Shown in pieces: positions 14,968 through 27,475 of a stretch of DNA of 64,000 nucleotides. The notes under the pieces were generated by a model, which saw only the letters and a program-made list of their open reading frames with translations, made no database searches and was not told the DNA's origin. Source of the DNA: a virus; IMG/VR virus record IMGVR_UViG_3300034121_000527, positions 1 through 64,000 of that record. One strand, given 5' to 3'. A program made the position numbers and the translations under genes. The first letter of the stretch is position 1, and every line of letters starts with the position of its first letter.

Positions 14968-14983
14968 GTGCTTGGAAAAGAGT

Positions 14984-15018
14984 GCCTCCACCCTTATGGG
15001 TGGGGGTGCTTTTTTTTT
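14984..15018 (+). terminator. Rho-independent terminator
   Basis: Stem CCTCCACCC / GGGTGGGGG with a four-base loop and one G-U pair, followed by nine T. It ends the single-gene unit 14392-14967. Confidence 0.9.
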
Positions 15019-15040
15019 GCCCATTTTTCCCCTGAAACTT

Positions 15041-15068
15041 TTGGGCTCTGTACACATTTTCATAGTGT
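15041..15068 (+). promoter_or_regulatory. Possible promoter (TTGGGC - 16 - TAGTGT)
   Basis: Directly after the terminator, a weak -35-like TTGGGC is followed 16 bases later by TAGTGT. The second terminator at 27345-27400 is also followed by TAGTGT with a -35-like TTGTCT 15 bases upstream, which supports the pair as a phage promoter. No mapped start is available. Confidence 0.4.
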
Positions 15069-15099
15069 GTAGAGCATAGGTGAGCGCTGTGTGGCGCTG

Positions 15100-15135
15100 G
15101 ACTAGCCTGCGTCGCAAACGTGATTGCGTCAAGGG
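15100..15135 (+). promoter_or_regulatory. Conserved post-terminator motif, copy 1
   Basis: Shares GACTAG, then CGTCGCAAaCGTGAT, then GTC and AAGG in the same order with 27438-27475, with only small gaps between blocks. In this copy CGCAA and TTGCG can pair. Both copies lie just after a terminator and before a plus-strand unit, so an operator or leader-RNA element is inferred. Confidence 0.6.
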
Positions 15136-15171
15136 TGACGTCCTATGGGTGTGACATATGTAACAGTGATG

Positions 15172-15183
15172 TGACAATTGTCA
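15172..15183. promoter_or_regulatory. Perfect palindrome, possible operator
   Basis: TGACAATTGTCA is its own reverse complement, and the flanking TGTGACA is repeated just upstream (around 15150). Its TTGTCA half could also serve as a -35 with CATAAT 18 bases downstream. Either a repressor site or a second promoter; unproven. Confidence 0.4.
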
Positions 15184-15530
15184 TACCTACCCTAAATACC
15201 TCATAATGTGGCAAATGTCACTAAGATTTGGCCTATGAGTGGGCCTATAGCGTGGTTGAGCACCAATATTGCGGTGCAAGCCCTGCTACAAGCACTACTA
15301 CCCCCATTCAGTAGTTGCTATCGCTACATTGCTCCCATGATGTAGTGAGTCCACTGCATAGGTGAGTCAGTGAGTGAGTTGCGCATACCATTGCATGCAC
15401 CACCACTGACAAGATCATCACTGTCTCTACCATTGACTAGAGCAGTGCTTATACCTTCTCCTATATAAAAGGGGAAGGTTAATCGGTTTGGGCGAAAAAA
15501 GTCGTCCATTGAGTGCCTGAGGAGGCATAT

Positions 15531-15920: not shown

Positions 15921-15997
15921 GCCACCATAGCTCAGTTGGTTAGAGCAAGGCACTCATAATGCCTGGGTCACAGGTTCAAGTCCTGTTGGTGGCACCA
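15921..15997 (+). tRNA. tRNA-Met (anticodon CAU)
   Basis: Acceptor GCCACCA/TGGTGGC, D arm GCTC...GAGC with GG, anticodon stem AGGCA/TGCCT around CTCATAA (CAU), T loop TTCAAGT, discriminator A and an encoded CCA. Reads as elongator Met. A CAU anticodon could in principle be lysidine-modified to Ile, but the phage already has Ile(UAU). Confidence 0.95.
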
Positions 15998-16028: not shown

Positions 16029-16391
16029 ATGACCAAAGAAAAACTGATAGTTAATCTTTGCCTTGATGACATTATCAAGCCTGACCACGCTCTGAGGATA
16101 CTTGCCTCAGAGATTGGACTCAATGATGATGAAACCGAAGCATTCATCATCAAAATTGCCAGTCATTTCAAGGATAGAACTGGTAAGTCCAGATGGACAG
16201 ACAGCGAAGACGATCTCGTTGTCTCCATGTATGGGGAAGGTTATCCCCCCAAAGATATAGCTAGTAGATTGGGGCGAACTGTTGCCTCGGTAAATCAGCG
16301 CATTTTTATTTTGCGCAAGTGTGGGTACAACCTACCTAGTAAACGGCCTGATGCAATGGGTAACTCCTACGCTAAGAGGTGGGTGTCATGA
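16029..16391 (+). CDS. HTH DNA-binding protein, SANT/Myb-like (120 aa)
   Basis: Residues ~52-97 (RTGKSRWTDSEDDLVVSMYGEGYPPKDIASRLGRTVASVNQRIFILRKCG) follow the pattern of SANT/Myb or GcrA-like small helix-turn-helix domains: R-W-T-x-x-E-D-x-L, a turn, then D-I-A-x-x-L-G-R-T-x-x-S-V-x-x-R. The N-terminal ~50 residues are acidic and helical. Probably binds DNA and regulates early genes, or acts in host takeover. Good AAAGGA upstream (spacing a little long); follows tRNA-Met. Confidence 0.7.
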   Translation: MTKEKLIVNLCLDDIIKPDHALRILASEIGLNDDETEAFIIKIASHFKDRTGKSRWTDSEDDLVVSMYGEGYPPKDIASRLGRTVASVNQRIFILRKCGYNLPSKRPDAMGNSYAKRWVS

Positions 16392-16615
16392 ACCCTTTAG
16401 ATAACTTGGGCGACAAGCTCTACCGACGACTCACTAACATTGAGTCAATTGAGGTAGAGGAATATATCATCAAGACGTACGGCCAAAAGGTTGGCATGCG
16501 AATTATTCGCTTAGCCGACAACATTGGTTGGAGTGATGGTGAAGAAACAATTACAGCCGTTGCCGCTTTCAACCGTGCGGTGCAGTATTACCGCAGACAA
16601 CGGCTTGCTATCTAG
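16388..16615 (+). CDS. Hypothetical protein (75 aa)
   Basis: ATG at 16388 overlaps the upstream stop (ATGA), and GAGGTGG is in front; a GTG at 16379 is the other possibility. Basic helical protein (MNPLDNLGDKLYRRLTNIESIEVEEYIIKTYGQK...). Not recognised; coupled to the HTH gene, so possibly its partner. Confidence 0.6.
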   Translation: MNPLDNLGDKLYRRLTNIESIEVEEYIIKTYGQKVGMRIIRLADNIGWSDGEETITAVAAFNRAVQYYRRQRLAI

Positions 16616-17037
16616 GCCCCTGATGTGTGGGCTAGTAGATGACACTGTGCTATCTGTGGATAGTAGAAGAAATTTACGAAAGCGTTGGGTAAGGCAGTTT
16701 TGGCTTAGATGCCGGGTTCGCCCTTTAGCAGCATCGCTGTCTTACCCCCTAATACATCCCCAGGAAGAAGCGGCTGGGTATCAAGTGAGCTGATGGGCGA
16801 ATGTGTAAGCCCTAGTATCCCGAGTACCTCATCGGGCAAATTACACTACGAGGATATGGTCTGCTCGACCTTAACTGGCAAAAGCAACTATAGGAACTTA
16901 CATTGGCCTATAGCCAAGAGAAAATGTTCGTAATTAGAAAGCCAACGTAACGGCTTTATCTCGGAATACTGCTTCCGTCATCACGCCAGTAAGTTTTTTG
17001 TATATTTTTTACTTGCCAACTTTAAAAAATATACACT
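16616..17037 (+). ncRNA. Densely folded non-coding region beside tRNA-Arg
   Basis: No gene supported in 422 bases; short open frames here show no family or binding site. Base-pairing is extensive: GGGTAAGGCAG (16687-16697) with CTGTCTTACCC (16737-16747; 11 pairs, one G-U), GATGC/GCATC inside it (16708-16735), and GGG-TTCG-CCC (16714-16723) at the tip. Further hairpins are CCCGA/TCGGG near 16818-16836, CTATAGG/CCTATAG (16888-16913), AAAGCC/GGCTTT near 16938-16957, and an 11-bp perfect GTATATTTTTT/AAAAAATATAC (17000-17034) just before the tRNA. This looks like a structured RNA. GOLLD-type phage RNAs are often next to tRNAs, but I cannot confirm that class. Confidence 0.55.
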
Positions 17038-17113
17038 GCACCAGTAGCTCAATGGATAGAGCAACAGACTTCTAATCTGTAGGTTGTAGGTTCGAGACCT
17101 ACCTGGTGCGCCA
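17038..17113 (+). tRNA. tRNA-Arg (anticodon UCU)
   Basis: Acceptor GCACCAG/CTGGTGC, D arm GCTC...GAGC, anticodon stem ACAGA/TCTGT around CTTCTAA (UCU, reads AGA), T arm GTAGG-TTCGAGA-CCTAC, discriminator G and encoded CCA. AGA is a codon favoured in AT-rich genes. Confidence 0.95.
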
Positions 17114-17202
17114 AGCCAAGGGCTACGGTCATGTCATTCTTTTGGGGCTTTAAGAATAACCTGCGTTTAATTCATGCGTTAAAAGGTTATTCGCCCTTGG
17201 CT
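17114..17202 (+). ncRNA. Long bulged hairpin right after tRNA-Arg
   Basis: AGCCAAGGGC (17114-17123) pairs with GCCCTTGGCT (17193-17202), and GAATAACCT (17154-17162) pairs with AGGTTATTC (17184-17192). The 3' arm is continuous over 19 bases while the 5' arm has a ~30-base insert. It begins one base after the tRNA CCA, so it may aid tRNA 3' processing or be part of the same folded RNA as 16616-17037. Confidence 0.6.
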
Positions 17203-17235
17203 ACATATCTAAAACAACAAACGAAAGGAACAGCA

Positions 17236-17697
17236 ATGACCATATCATTAGTTATAGATCCAATTGGGACAATAAGAAAGATTGATTTAGACGGGTATGA
17301 ACCACTGTCTAACGCTGTGGGTGGACTCATTGAGTCAGTCCCAGCAAATCTTGCGGTCACCATTTGGTGCAACGAAGAAGGCAAGATGTTAGGTCAAGAT
17401 TTTAATCTTGTTGCCACAGACTTGTGGGAAGTGTTTGACGAATACGGCTGTGTAGCAGCTGGGGATGTACTGGTTGGTCCAATTGTTATTCAAGGACCAG
17501 CTGATGAGGAAGGGGAATGTACAGATGTTCCCGACTGGTTGCTCATGCACCTGGGCTTTAGTATGCAAGCACCAGCCCCCAATAGCGGAAAGACCGTGTG
17601 TGTCAACTGCCATGGAACTGGTTCTTTAATGAGAAACGGAATCCATGACGGGGCAGAATGCCCCAAGTGTTACGGATGGGGTAGCACTTATGAATAA
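17236..17697 (+). CDS. DUF3846-type protein with DnaJ-like zinc finger (153 aa)
   Basis: Start chosen at ATG 17236 behind GAAAGGA; the frame extends upstream into the hairpin. Residues ~1-105 follow the DUF3846 pattern: VIDPIGTIRKIDL, LSNAVGGLIESVP, IWCNEEGKMLGQDFNLVATDL, GDVLVGPIVIQG. The C-terminus adds CVNCHGTG...CPKCYGWG, two CxxCxGxG units as in the DnaJ central finger. DUF3846 proteins are common in actinophages and of unknown function. First of a coupled run of small zinc-binding proteins. Confidence 0.75.
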   Translation: MTISLVIDPIGTIRKIDLDGYEPLSNAVGGLIESVPANLAVTIWCNEEGKMLGQDFNLVATDLWEVFDEYGCVAAGDVLVGPIVIQGPADEEGECTDVPDWLLMHLGFSMQAPAPNSGKTVCVNCHGTGSLMRNGIHDGAECPKCYGWGSTYE

Positions 17698-19043: not shown

Positions 19044-20330
19044 ATGGCAAGTGTCAAAGAATTAAGGAATGGGATGAGAGTGGTGGGCAAGTATCCGCCA
19101 TTCAAAGATGCTGAGGGTGAGATCACTCGCAGTGTATTGGTGCCAGGTGGTCCTGGTAGCAAGATTCAAGTAACTTTCGATGATCCGTTGTTAGGTACAG
19201 TGGAGATTCTGCCCAAGGGTGTTGAATTGATTGGACGTGTTAGCGTTGCAAACGCCGCCTCGTCCACTACAGCCTCCGCCACTACAGTGGTTGGTAATGT
19301 GATTATCAGCGATATGCGTATCGAATCGCTAGACGATCCTGCTTTGGACGACTTCCGTCCGAATATCAATCCTGCTAACTACGTATCACGTACGCTTGCA
19401 GGCGGTAAGACAGACTTGGAAGTTATGGAAGCATACTTCAATCGTCGTGACGAGAACGACGGGTACCCCGTATCCGTCGCTTTGGTAGGCGATACGCAAT
19501 CAGGTAAGACCTACCTCATTCAGGTACAGGCTTTCCGTATTGCCAAACTGTTGGGACTACAAAAGCCATTGCCGTTGTTCCTGCTCGCAGGTTCAAGCGC
19601 AATCACCGATCACGACTTGTTCGGACAGTATCGTCCGATCATTGTGAATGGGCAAGAACGTCTTGTGTGGATGGAGGGCATCGTTGCTCTAGCCGCTCGT
19701 CTCGGTGGTATCTTGTATCTTGACGAGGTTAACGCTATGTCAGGCTCAGTAACGGCAGCAATTCACCCACTGCTTGACAATCGTCACCAGTTCGTGAACA
19801 TCCGTAAGCCTGTCTGGAAAGGCACGGTTGAGGTTGACCCAATCACAGGCGTTGAGACGCATCATGGTGCATATCGCCCCGAAACAGTGGTGGCGAATAA
19901 GAACCTGTGGATCATGGCTTCATGGAACCCTGGTTATGCAGGCATGGCCAAAACCAATGAAGCGTTTGCTAACCGCTTCAAATTGTTGGAATGGAACTAC
20001 GACGAAGAGGTTGAGAAGAAGCTCATCAAGTCACCAGCAGTTCGGTTGCTTGGCCAGGCTTTGCGCAATGCTCGTGCTCAGCGTTCAATCACAACTCCTG
20101 TTGGTACACGGGCACTGCAGTTGCTTGAGGGTGACTTGGTTCACCTTGGAGTTGACTACAGCCTTTGGGCTTTCATGGGCCAGTTTGTGTCATCACAAGA
20201 AAAGATTGTGGTGAACGAGATCATCAAGGATCGTGGAATTGCAATCATGATGAAAGACGAATTCGAGCCTGACGTACCTGCGCCAGCAGTTGACCTCACA
20301 TCGCTTATTGGCGATAACGAGCCGTACTGA
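19044..20330 (+). CDS. MoxR/CobS-like AAA+ ATPase (428 aa)
   Basis: N-terminal ~65 residues form a KOW/SH3-like beta segment (GMRVVGKYPPFKDAEGEITRSVLVPGGPGSKIQVTFDDP). The AAA+ core has Walker A GDTQSGKT (149-156), Walker B ILYLDE (223-228), the N-rich sensor LWIMASWNPGYAGM (~300) and the DLFGQYRP motif of the MoxR branch. MoxR enzymes act as chaperone-like remodelers together with a vWA partner. The next gene encodes a vWA protein, so the two probably form one machine. AAGGAGG precedes ATG. G+C looks higher than in the following gene. Confidence 0.85.
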   Translation: MASVKELRNGMRVVGKYPPFKDAEGEITRSVLVPGGPGSKIQVTFDDPLLGTVEILPKGVELIGRVSVANAASSTTASATTVVGNVIISDMRIESLDDPALDDFRPNINPANYVSRTLAGGKTDLEVMEAYFNRRDENDGYPVSVALVGDTQSGKTYLIQVQAFRIAKLLGLQKPLPLFLLAGSSAITDHDLFGQYRPIIVNGQERLVWMEGIVALAARLGGILYLDEVNAMSGSVTAAIHPLLDNRHQFVNIRKPVWKGTVEVDPITGVETHHGAYRPETVVANKNLWIMASWNPGYAGMAKTNEAFANRFKLLEWNYDEEVEKKLIKSPAVRLLGQALRNARAQRSITTPVGTRALQLLEGDLVHLGVDYSLWAFMGQFVSSQEKIVVNEIIKDRGIAIMMKDEFEPDVPAPAVDLTSLIGDNEPY

Positions 20331-20347
20331 TCCTGAGGAGGAATCAC

Positions 20348-22567
20348 ATGGTAAAGAAACAAAAAATGAACGAGGATGCTCTTGACCGACGGTCAAAGGC
20401 ACGCTCCATGAATCGCCGTGAGGCACTAAAGATTCGGGAGGACTACAATAAGGAAGTCTTAAACTTGATTTACTCAAATGACAATCAAGTTGATAAAGGT
20501 TTCCTTAACCACAAAAGTAAGGGTGACCCACGTGCTATCAGAGCTACTGCTTATGTATTAGCTGAACGAGCACGTAAGGTTCTTACTTCTATGGGTATCA
20601 ACCCACCCCTATCGTTGGATGTTGCGTATTACCGCAATGAAGTTAAGACAGTCAGTGCCATTACTGACTACAACAAAATTTCAATCCAGTTTGATATGGG
20701 TATGGTTGATCCATCAGATACAACAAAGATTGCAGAGTTGTTATCTGCTCTCAAAGCAGTGGTTTACCACGAAGGTGGGCACATCATGCTCACTTTGCCT
20801 TGGAAAGTGTTGTTTGATTGCTCATTAATGGATAACGGAATGAATCCAATTTCGTTTAACCCATATCAAACTAAGTGGGGTGACAACTTTGCAGAAACTT
20901 ACCCCGCTTATGTTGGTATGCGCAGTGACCTGAGATCAATTACAGACACCGTTCCTACTCCCACCGACCATGGAATTGTTTTTAGCAGTGATTCCAAATG
21001 GCAACAACATCACAATCATTATTATGGTGTAGCTGAGGTTTTGCACCCCAGTTGGAACCTATTGGAAGATGGGCGTATGGAGAGTGAGATGACTATCAAT
21101 AACCCTCCCATGATTAACTACTTCACTTCCTTAGTACTTAACTACATCGTTGATGAGGAAGAGCCAGGCTATGCTTGGCCGTTTGTTATCACTAGGTTGC
21201 ATTTGGATGAGGAGCTCATAGATAACATTAGACAATTGGCATATAAGTTTGCAGAAGATAAGAACTTAGATGTTACTCTTGTTGATCAAATCGAAGAGCA
21301 AATCCATGTGTATCGTCAAGCTAAGACACCAACAGATGTTGTTGTTGCTACTTGGCAAATGCACAACCTCATCACTCAGTGGATGGCCGGGGGTAAAGGT
21401 AATGATGGTAAGCAACCACAACCTGAAGATGGACGTGGACGACAAGGTAAAGGTTCACCTAATCCTGGCGGTACTAATGAGGGTAATAACCCTGGTAAAA
21501 CCGTAGTCCACGAACAACCAACCTTTGGTGATGAAGGTAAAGGTTGGGAGACAAAGCCCGGAGATCCTAAGCAAAAACCTGAAGAGGGTGAAGGTGAAGG
21601 TAAGGGGGAAGGTGAGGGTGAAGGTAACCCAACAAACGAAGGTAAAACTGGTAAGGGTAATGAATCTGATAAGGATTCAAAAGAAATTAGTCCTACCGGT
21701 GGTACTAAAGGCACTGGTGGTAAGGTTAAACAAAACATTAACTACCAAGAGATTCGTGAGAAACTCAAAGAGAAAACCAAAGAAGCAATGAAGCGTATTG
21801 TTTCTAACGACGAAGCGGAACAGCTCATCTCTGAAATCAATACAGAGTTGATGCGAGACATGCCACATAATGGTGCTGTATCAAATATGGACGGTGCTCT
21901 TATGGCCGATGCAATGTCTGTAGCTAGTCAAATGTTATCGGCGCTTGAACCGTTAGCATTGACAGCTGATCCTGCTTGGCGTTTCCGTCAGGAACATGGT
22001 GTGCTTGACCCCACGTCATACAAAATGCACGAGCCTGGTGACTCAGACTATTGGGTTGACTACGAAGGTGAAGGTGCCCATGGCCATAGTCTTGCTGTGT
22101 CTGTTATGTTAGACACTTCAGGTTCTATGCAAGGTTGGATGGATCAACTATCAGTTGCGGCGTATGGTATACGTAGTGCTTGTGATAGCTTAGAAATCCC
22201 ATGCACAGTGTCTACCTTTGACACAGAGCCATACATGATCTGGGATCATGATGAGGTTGCACAACCAGTGCTTATCCATGATGGTGGTGGTACAAATCCG
22301 CTTGATGGTTTGCGCCAAATTAAAAATCAGGTTGCTGGTAAAAAGCGCCACCTTGTTGTTATACTCACCGATGGCGAGTGGTCACAAGTAAATTCAATCA
22401 AGCCATTTGTACAACCTGGCCAGTACTGGTTACTAGTTGGCCTTGGTAACGCTCATTACGCCAAGGAGCTTGTATCCAAGAAAGGTGGTGACGTGGCAAT
22501 TGGTATTGATGACGTAATGAATCTCCCCAAGGAGATTGAGAAAGCTCTTATCGGATTCCTAGCCTAG
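20348..22567 (+). CDS. vWA protein with HExxH motif, CobT-like (739 aa)
   Basis: Three parts. Residues ~1-370 contain VVYHEGGHIML (HEGGH, 141-145), which fits the HExxH zinc metallopeptidase signature. Residues ~385-465 are a disordered Gly/Glu/Lys linker (repeats of GEGEG). From ~480 a helical region leads into a C-terminal vWA domain with MIDAS residues DTSGS (~588), GGGTNP (~650) and LTDGEW (~674). The layout matches CobT-like partners of MoxR/CobS ATPases but with an added peptidase-like N-terminal domain. Whether the HEGGH site is active is unknown. Strong GAGGAGG site; 17 bases downstream of the ATPase. Confidence 0.8.
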   Translation: MVKKQKMNEDALDRRSKARSMNRREALKIREDYNKEVLNLIYSNDNQVDKGFLNHKSKGDPRAIRATAYVLAERARKVLTSMGINPPLSLDVAYYRNEVKTVSAITDYNKISIQFDMGMVDPSDTTKIAELLSALKAVVYHEGGHIMLTLPWKVLFDCSLMDNGMNPISFNPYQTKWGDNFAETYPAYVGMRSDLRSITDTVPTPTDHGIVFSSDSKWQQHHNHYYGVAEVLHPSWNLLEDGRMESEMTINNPPMINYFTSLVLNYIVDEEEPGYAWPFVITRLHLDEELIDNIRQLAYKFAEDKNLDVTLVDQIEEQIHVYRQAKTPTDVVVATWQMHNLITQWMAGGKGNDGKQPQPEDGRGRQGKGSPNPGGTNEGNNPGKTVVHEQPTFGDEGKGWETKPGDPKQKPEEGEGEGKGEGEGEGNPTNEGKTGKGNESDKDSKEISPTGGTKGTGGKVKQNINYQEIREKLKEKTKEAMKRIVSNDEAEQLISEINTELMRDMPHNGAVSNMDGALMADAMSVASQMLSALEPLALTADPAWRFRQEHGVLDPTSYKMHEPGDSDYWVDYEGEGAHGHSLAVSVMLDTSGSMQGWMDQLSVAAYGIRSACDSLEIPCTVSTFDTEPYMIWDHDEVAQPVLIHDGGGTNPLDGLRQIKNQVAGKKRHLVVILTDGEWSQVNSIKPFVQPGQYWLLVGLGNAHYAKELVSKKGGDVAIGIDDVMNLPKEIEKALIGFLA

Positions 22568-27344: not shown

Positions 27345-27400
27345 CAACCCCTGACGGGAGTCACTGTAACAAGTGGCCCCGTCAGGGGTGCTTTTTTTTT
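27345..27400 (+). terminator. Rho-independent terminator
   Basis: Perfect 11-bp stem CCCCTGACGGG (27348-27358) / CCCGTCAGGGG (27378-27388) with a 19-base loop, then a run of nine T. It ends the long unit 15531-27341. Confidence 0.92.
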
Positions 27401-27409
27401 GTCAATTTT

Positions 27410-27475
27410 TTGTCTGTAAATTTCAGTGGATAGTGTAGACTAGTACTCGTCGCAAGCGTGATGCTGTCCAAAGGA
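27410..27475 (+). promoter_or_regulatory. Promoter region with conserved post-terminator motif, copy 2
   Basis: TTGTCT (27410-27415) and TAGTGT (27431-27436) form a promoter-like pair (15-base spacer). Then 27438-27475 repeats the motif of 15100-15135 (GACTAG, CGTCGCAAgCGTGAT, GTC, AAAGG). Here the motif is followed within ten bases by the HNH start codon, so it lies in the 5' UTR. Confidence 0.55.

Follow-up and report, generated by a model that had tools for sequence, protein, structure and literature searches.

The DNA that we analysed (the window) is a stretch of 64,000 nucleotides, positions 1 to 64,000 of the IMG/VR virus record IMGVR_UViG_3300034121_000527, which has 93,972 bases in all. 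The best relative of its helicase is the helicase of Streptomyces phage BRock (39% identity), which makes an actinobacterium the likely host; the phage belongs to a little-known group. A rightward block in the window comprises tRNA-Met, two small genes, tRNA-Arg(UCU) and a DUF3846 gene (Table 1), and 422 bases separate the stop codon of the second small gene from tRNA-Arg. The original prediction had noticed about 420 bases without a gene here, and we likewise found no conserved gene between positions 16616 and 17037. Positions 19044-22567 encode an AAA-ATPase followed by a VWA-type protein, an arrangement reminiscent of CobS/CobT or MoxR/VWA pairs.

A conserved non-coding control region of 545 nt (14968-15512) lies upstream in the same putative operon. 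It contains a terminator-like hairpin with T9, three TGTGACAnnTGTCACA-like palindromes (15150-15222) and TTGACT...TATATAAAAGGGG elements, and parts of it are retained even in the contigs L039 and L040, which are discussed below. A 39-nt near copy (82%) of a segment near the start of the control region can be found at positions 27385-27423. Between positions 15400 and 17300 no terminator-like site was found on the plus strand, so that read-through into tRNA-Arg is expected, and no clear sigma-70 promoter was seen near the 422-base gap.

To find relatives, viral contigs were searched with an RNA motif, the tRNA and two proteins, namely the one encoded before the RNA and the VWA protein nearby. 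Six distinct full-length versions of a conserved, structured region, which we refer to as the type-1 RNA, were recovered (in the window and in contigs L002, L003, L004, L007 and L008), three of them close, together with a seventh (L034) of which only a 3′ fragment is present. Across all relatives, identity to the window is 68-96% over the whole RNA and 87-98% over its core; in the most distant contigs (L004, L007 and L008) the corresponding values are about 69-72% and, for the core of ~90 columns, 87-90%. In every member, tRNA-Arg(UCU) starts 2-3 bases 3′ of the RNA, and the spacing between the terminal helix (P14) and the tRNA is constant in all seven sequences. The gene 5′ of the RNA is a different one in L007 and L008, where the RNA is nevertheless kept, which indicates that the RNA is linked to the tRNA rather than to the preceding gene.

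Table 1. Features of the type-1 RNA locus and of the Gordonia phage candidate; positions are those of the window unless another record is named.
Feature	Position	Strand	Remarks
tRNA-Met	15921-15997		rightward block
Small gene	16029-16391		rightward block
Small gene	16379-16615		rightward block; stop codon 16613-16615
Type-1 structured RNA, P1 to end of P14	16615-17035	+	conserved in six contigs; covarying helices; non-coding
P1 hairpin, GGCCC/GGGCT	16615-16619/16629-16633	+	two compensatory pairs
P2 pseudoknot, P1 loop GATGTGT with ATACATC	16622-16628/16752-16758	+	
P4 arm, GGGTAAGGCAG/CTGTCTTACCC	16687-16697/16737-16747	+	11 bp
Inside P4, GATGC/GCATC	16708-16712/16731-16735		
Inside P4, GGG-UUCG-CCC	16714-16723		
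P6 hairpin, CCCAG/CTGGG	16759-16778	+	invariant in six
Core including P7, P8 and P9	16795-16846	+	
P7, GGGC/GCCC	16795-16798/16809-16812	+	invariant
P8, GTGTAA/TTACAC	16803-16808/16841-16846	+	
P9, CCCG/CGGG	16819-16822/16833-16836	+	invariant
P10 hairpin, GGTC/GACC	16858-16870	+	AGGT/ACCT in L004 (three compensated pairs)
P11 hairpin, CTATAGG/CCTATAG	16888-16894/16907-16913	+	hand alignment
Second pseudoknot, ACATT/AATGT	16900-16904/16923-16927	+	rebuilt with new sequence in L008
P12, AAAGCC/GGCTTT	16938-16943/16952-16957	+	
P13, CGGAA/TTCCG	16962-16966/16973-16977	+	
P14 terminal A/T-rich hairpin	16999-17011/17023-17035	+	13 bp, perfect; ends 2 nt 5′ of tRNA
tRNA-Arg (UCU)	17038-17113	+	ARAGORN; Rfam RF00005, 73.7 bits
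Hairpin insert, ~90 nt	17114-17203	+	absent from all relatives, L007/L008 included
DUF3846 gene	3′ of tRNA-Arg		rightward block
Gordonia candidate	L058:4370-5190 (UBSmoodge PQ201087.1, 58882-59702)		plus 10 further records

At the sensitivity of blastn, no recognisable type-1 copy was present among 50,697 annotated phage records, and the matches of annotated phages to the RNAs of the window, L008 and L040 were those of chance only. The core motif had one match in bacterial genomes, apparently within a Sphingobacterium coding sequence, and a relaxed core pattern had three additional matches among the viral contigs, in coding-looking sequence; these were also attributed to chance. In BRock, the slot 5′ of the phage's own tRNA-Arg(UCU) is occupied by a coding-looking ORF and no RNA was seen there. 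The BRock genome also has an Rfam tmRNA match of 64.5 bits and only 81 nt on the minus strand (L056:2141-2221; record positions 97140-97220), which looks like a tRNA-like domain without the tag part, is unannotated and is not reported by ARAGORN.

A lack of covariation among relatives would have spoken against the folded RNA of the original prediction, but covariation was found: some 30 pairs, spread over ten helices and including two pseudoknots, have changed on both sides. As these counts derive mostly from a hand alignment of six sequences, single helices are to be held with care, while the structure as a whole is clear. P1 is rebuilt as GGGCC/GGCCT in L004 and as AGCCT/AGGCT in L007 and L008. 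Its loop forms the P2 pseudoknot with a partner ~130 bases away, in which 97.6% of the cells are paired and three pairs have changed on both sides, compared with 19-64% pairing in slid registers. The predicted 11-bp stem with nested GATGC/GCATC and a UUCG-capped tip was located at 16687-16747, where it forms P4; in L007 and L008, three adjacent G-C pairs of this arm are replaced by A-U, U-A and A-U, and the inner arm is remodelled. P6 opens the most conserved part of the molecule (CCCCAGG...TACAC). Within this core, A-U in P8 becomes G-C in L007 and G-U in L002, and P7 and P8 jointly would be a further pseudoknot. The invariance of P6, P7 and P9 neither supports nor contradicts these helices, and P7 and P9 are compatible with the alignment but unproven. 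The palindromic P9 loop (GGAATTCC/GGTTAACC/GGAGTTCC) was considered as a self-dimerisation site and dropped, as a coding control shows a similar or higher rate of such positions.

In the 3′ half, L002, L007 and L008 form the stem of P11 from altered sequences; neither this stem nor its pseudoknot could be placed in the hand alignment of L004. P12 and P13 together have four pairs with both sides changed in an unguided MAFFT alignment. P14 is 100% paired in the seven sequences, with three compensated pairs; it corresponds to the AT stem of the original prediction, which was rightly called perfect and is longer than the 11 bp given for it. GATGAC (near 16638) could also pair to GTCATC (near 16978), but this additional helix was rejected because it is broken in L004.

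Three helices of the 3′ part could be evaluated on the unguided alignment, and here 99.3% of 141 cells are paired and 7 of 21 pairs have changed on both sides. In 500 shuffles, neither the percentage of paired cells nor the covariation score was ever attained, and pairing fell to 38-63% once the partner was shifted by 1-3 columns. Folding of the single sequence alone is weak evidence and would not convince: the 422 nt 5′ of the tRNA gave a z-score of -1.99, and 4 of 100 shuffles matched or exceeded their stability; the antisense strand gave -1.72, and the whole 595 nt (tRNA included) gave -3.17. RNAalifold on the type-1 alignment yielded a z-score of -7.6, compared with -1.9 to -4.6 for coding controls under the same shuffle, which is lenient and leaves the test with only moderate specificity; the opposite strand scores as well, and the two strands are not told apart by this measure. 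It is the comparative evidence that places the RNA beyond chance.

The strand is indicated by the wobble pairs, with 17 G-U against one A-C in the paired cells, from which the plus strand is the RNA; this agrees with the earlier assignment of all pairs to the transcribed strand. Insertions and deletions relative to the window argue against coding, as most of them are not multiples of three (5 of 5, 5 of 5, 15 of 18, 13 of 14 and 14 of 18 in the five relatives), and the conserved coding frame that would have spoken against an RNA was not found. We conclude from these sequence comparisons that positions 16615-17035 encode a real structured non-coding RNA on the plus strand. The expectation of a single large structured RNA adjoining a phage tRNA is borne out by the covarying helices in the six versions.

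The relation to the tRNA is different from the one first proposed, in which the RNA encloses tRNA-Arg. The tRNA does follow, at the predicted place (17038-17113, anticodon TCT in the DNA), and the bulged hairpin described after it does exist at 17114-17202, closed by 10 perfect pairs (17114-17123/17193-17202). However, this insert, which is present only once in the genome, has no counterpart in any relative and was rejected as a part of the conserved RNA. Because the 3′ end of the RNA lies 2-3 bases short of the tRNA in each relative, the type-1 RNA adjoins tRNA-Arg and does not enclose it.

A search of 16400-17300 (901 bases) against Rfam with cmscan at E ≤ 10 and permissive filters returned only the tRNA and its mirror, the latter a match to plastid-ycf2 that is the antisense of tRNA-Arg. 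At the gathering level, the window as well as L002, L004, L007 and L008 gave tRNA only, and neither ARAGORN nor Rfam detected a tmRNA in the window. Recognisable GOLLD, ROOL, OLE, intron, RNase P and tmRNA sequences are thereby excluded, and the suggested membership of GOLLD is not supported. A short search of literature other than subscription journals did not find a description of the type-1 RNA. The other suggestion, that of a new class, is the probable one, given that nothing in Rfam apart from tRNA was matched.

We consider there to be a good probability that the type-1 RNA represents a new class, namely a free-standing phage RNA of ~420 nt that is transcribed as part of an operon, released by RNase P and active in trans. 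The rightward operon that includes tRNA-Met, the small genes and tRNA-Arg would be transcribed through the RNA. Cleavage at the 5′ ends of tRNAs is an established activity of RNase P, and a cut at the 5′ end of tRNA-Arg (17037/17038) would free the 3′ end of the RNA just past P14. The freed RNA would then fold compactly into a form with multiple pseudoknots and would act in trans; its role would most likely be a structural or binding one, as has been proposed for GOLLD and ROOL, which are themselves thought to act in trans. We infer action in trans from the size of the RNA, its pseudoknots and the lack of a nearby cis target.

An unlikely alternative is a cis-acting leader that controls the maturation or dosage of tRNA-Arg or the expression of the DUF3846 gene, with no independent RNA being made. 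The strict coupling to the tRNA at constant spacing in all members and the same operon strand throughout would fit such a leader, but 420 nt with pseudoknots far exceeds what a tRNA leader generally needs, no terminator-like site was seen on the plus strand, and the tRNA intervenes before the next gene. We see very little chance that the type-1 RNA belongs to GOLLD or ROOL as a truncated or highly diverged form beyond recognition by the covariance models: the setting is the same, in that these are large, pseudoknotted phage RNAs beside tRNAs (PMC12286853), but the permissive search of the 901 bases found only the tRNA and its mirror, and the type-1 RNA is only about half to two thirds as long. 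A ribozyme that cleaves itself or splices, such as a derived group I intron beside a tRNA, appears equally improbable, since the pseudoknotted fold and the highly conserved core of ~90 nt that could suggest it are set against a tRNA-Arg that is complete and uninterrupted, with no split exons visible, and against a search at E ≤ 10 in which none of the group I, group II and ribozyme families of Rfam was matched. A DNA-level element such as an origin, packaging or recombination site, with inverted repeats that act as DNA, is hardly credible either: such sites are frequent in phage intergenic regions, but they would tolerate G-U and A-C alike, against the counts of 17 and 1.

The slot of the new RNA class that we favour appears to hold other RNAs in other phages. 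Two more distant relatives, L040 and L037 (the same stretch as L039), encode VWA proteins that are 42-44% identical to that of the window and have an RNA of ~540 nt, here called type 2, directly 5′ of tRNA-Arg(UCU) (L039:5750-6420 and L040:5100-5830), which is not in Rfam. The RNAalifold consensus of the two sequences contains 10 compensated pairs, one of them in the tRNA and one beyond it, and the type-2 RNA may enclose tRNA-Arg, as conserved sequence continues past the tRNA. Type 2 has no blastn similarity to type 1, and the best score of the covariance model R1 in this comparison was 3.4 bits; a covariance model of the type-1 core matched neither the type-2 loci nor BRock.

In Gordonia phages (UBSmoodge, Gray, Chidiebere and others), a conserved, mostly unannotated stretch of ~740 nt lies 5′ of an AAA-ATPase and VWA (CobT-like) gene pair, a pair that is shared with the phage of the window. 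The stretch is 87% identical between two groups of sequences and has 11 compensated pairs in its consensus fold, in which 10 pairs have a broken cell, and it has no match in Rfam. Unlike type 1, this candidate is G+C-rich, it has no visible sequence similarity to type 1, and no tRNA is adjacent to it in UBSmoodge. Type 1, type 2 and the Gordonia candidate appear to be distinct RNAs at corresponding positions, a pattern in which two of the three rest on few or close sequences, which is its main limit. As the Gordonia candidate occurs in cultivated phages, its expression and the effect of its deletion are directly testable.

Few RNAs of unknown function are as elaborate as GOLLD and ROOL, the large structured phage RNAs beside tRNAs. 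Like the type-1 RNA, GOLLD is a large structured phage RNA that is often found near tRNA genes, and a phage tRNA gene is directly adjacent to type 1 in all of its members. Many GOLLD members, however, exceed 800 nt, compared with ~420 nt for type 1, and tRNAs are sometimes inside the GOLLD linker (PMC12286853), whereas the tRNA of type 1 lies 3′ of the RNA and the GOLLD model was unmatched at E ≤ 10. ROOL is a phage or prophage RNA with several pseudoknots that occurs near tRNA islands, with one example of 659 nt (PMC12286853). Type 1 resembles it in its position beside tRNA-Arg and in its two pseudoknots with compensatory changes, and differs in being shorter and in having no match to the ROOL model at E ≤ 10. 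Both GOLLD and ROOL form RNA-only cages (PMC12286853), and it is conceivable, though we advance this only as a speculation, that the slot before the gene module in actinobacterial phages is a hot spot for several unrelated large structured RNAs that do the same job, self-assembling or scaffolding like these cages. A compact class together with two unrelated RNAs in like positions suggests that large phage RNAs of this kind are commoner and more replaceable than Rfam shows.
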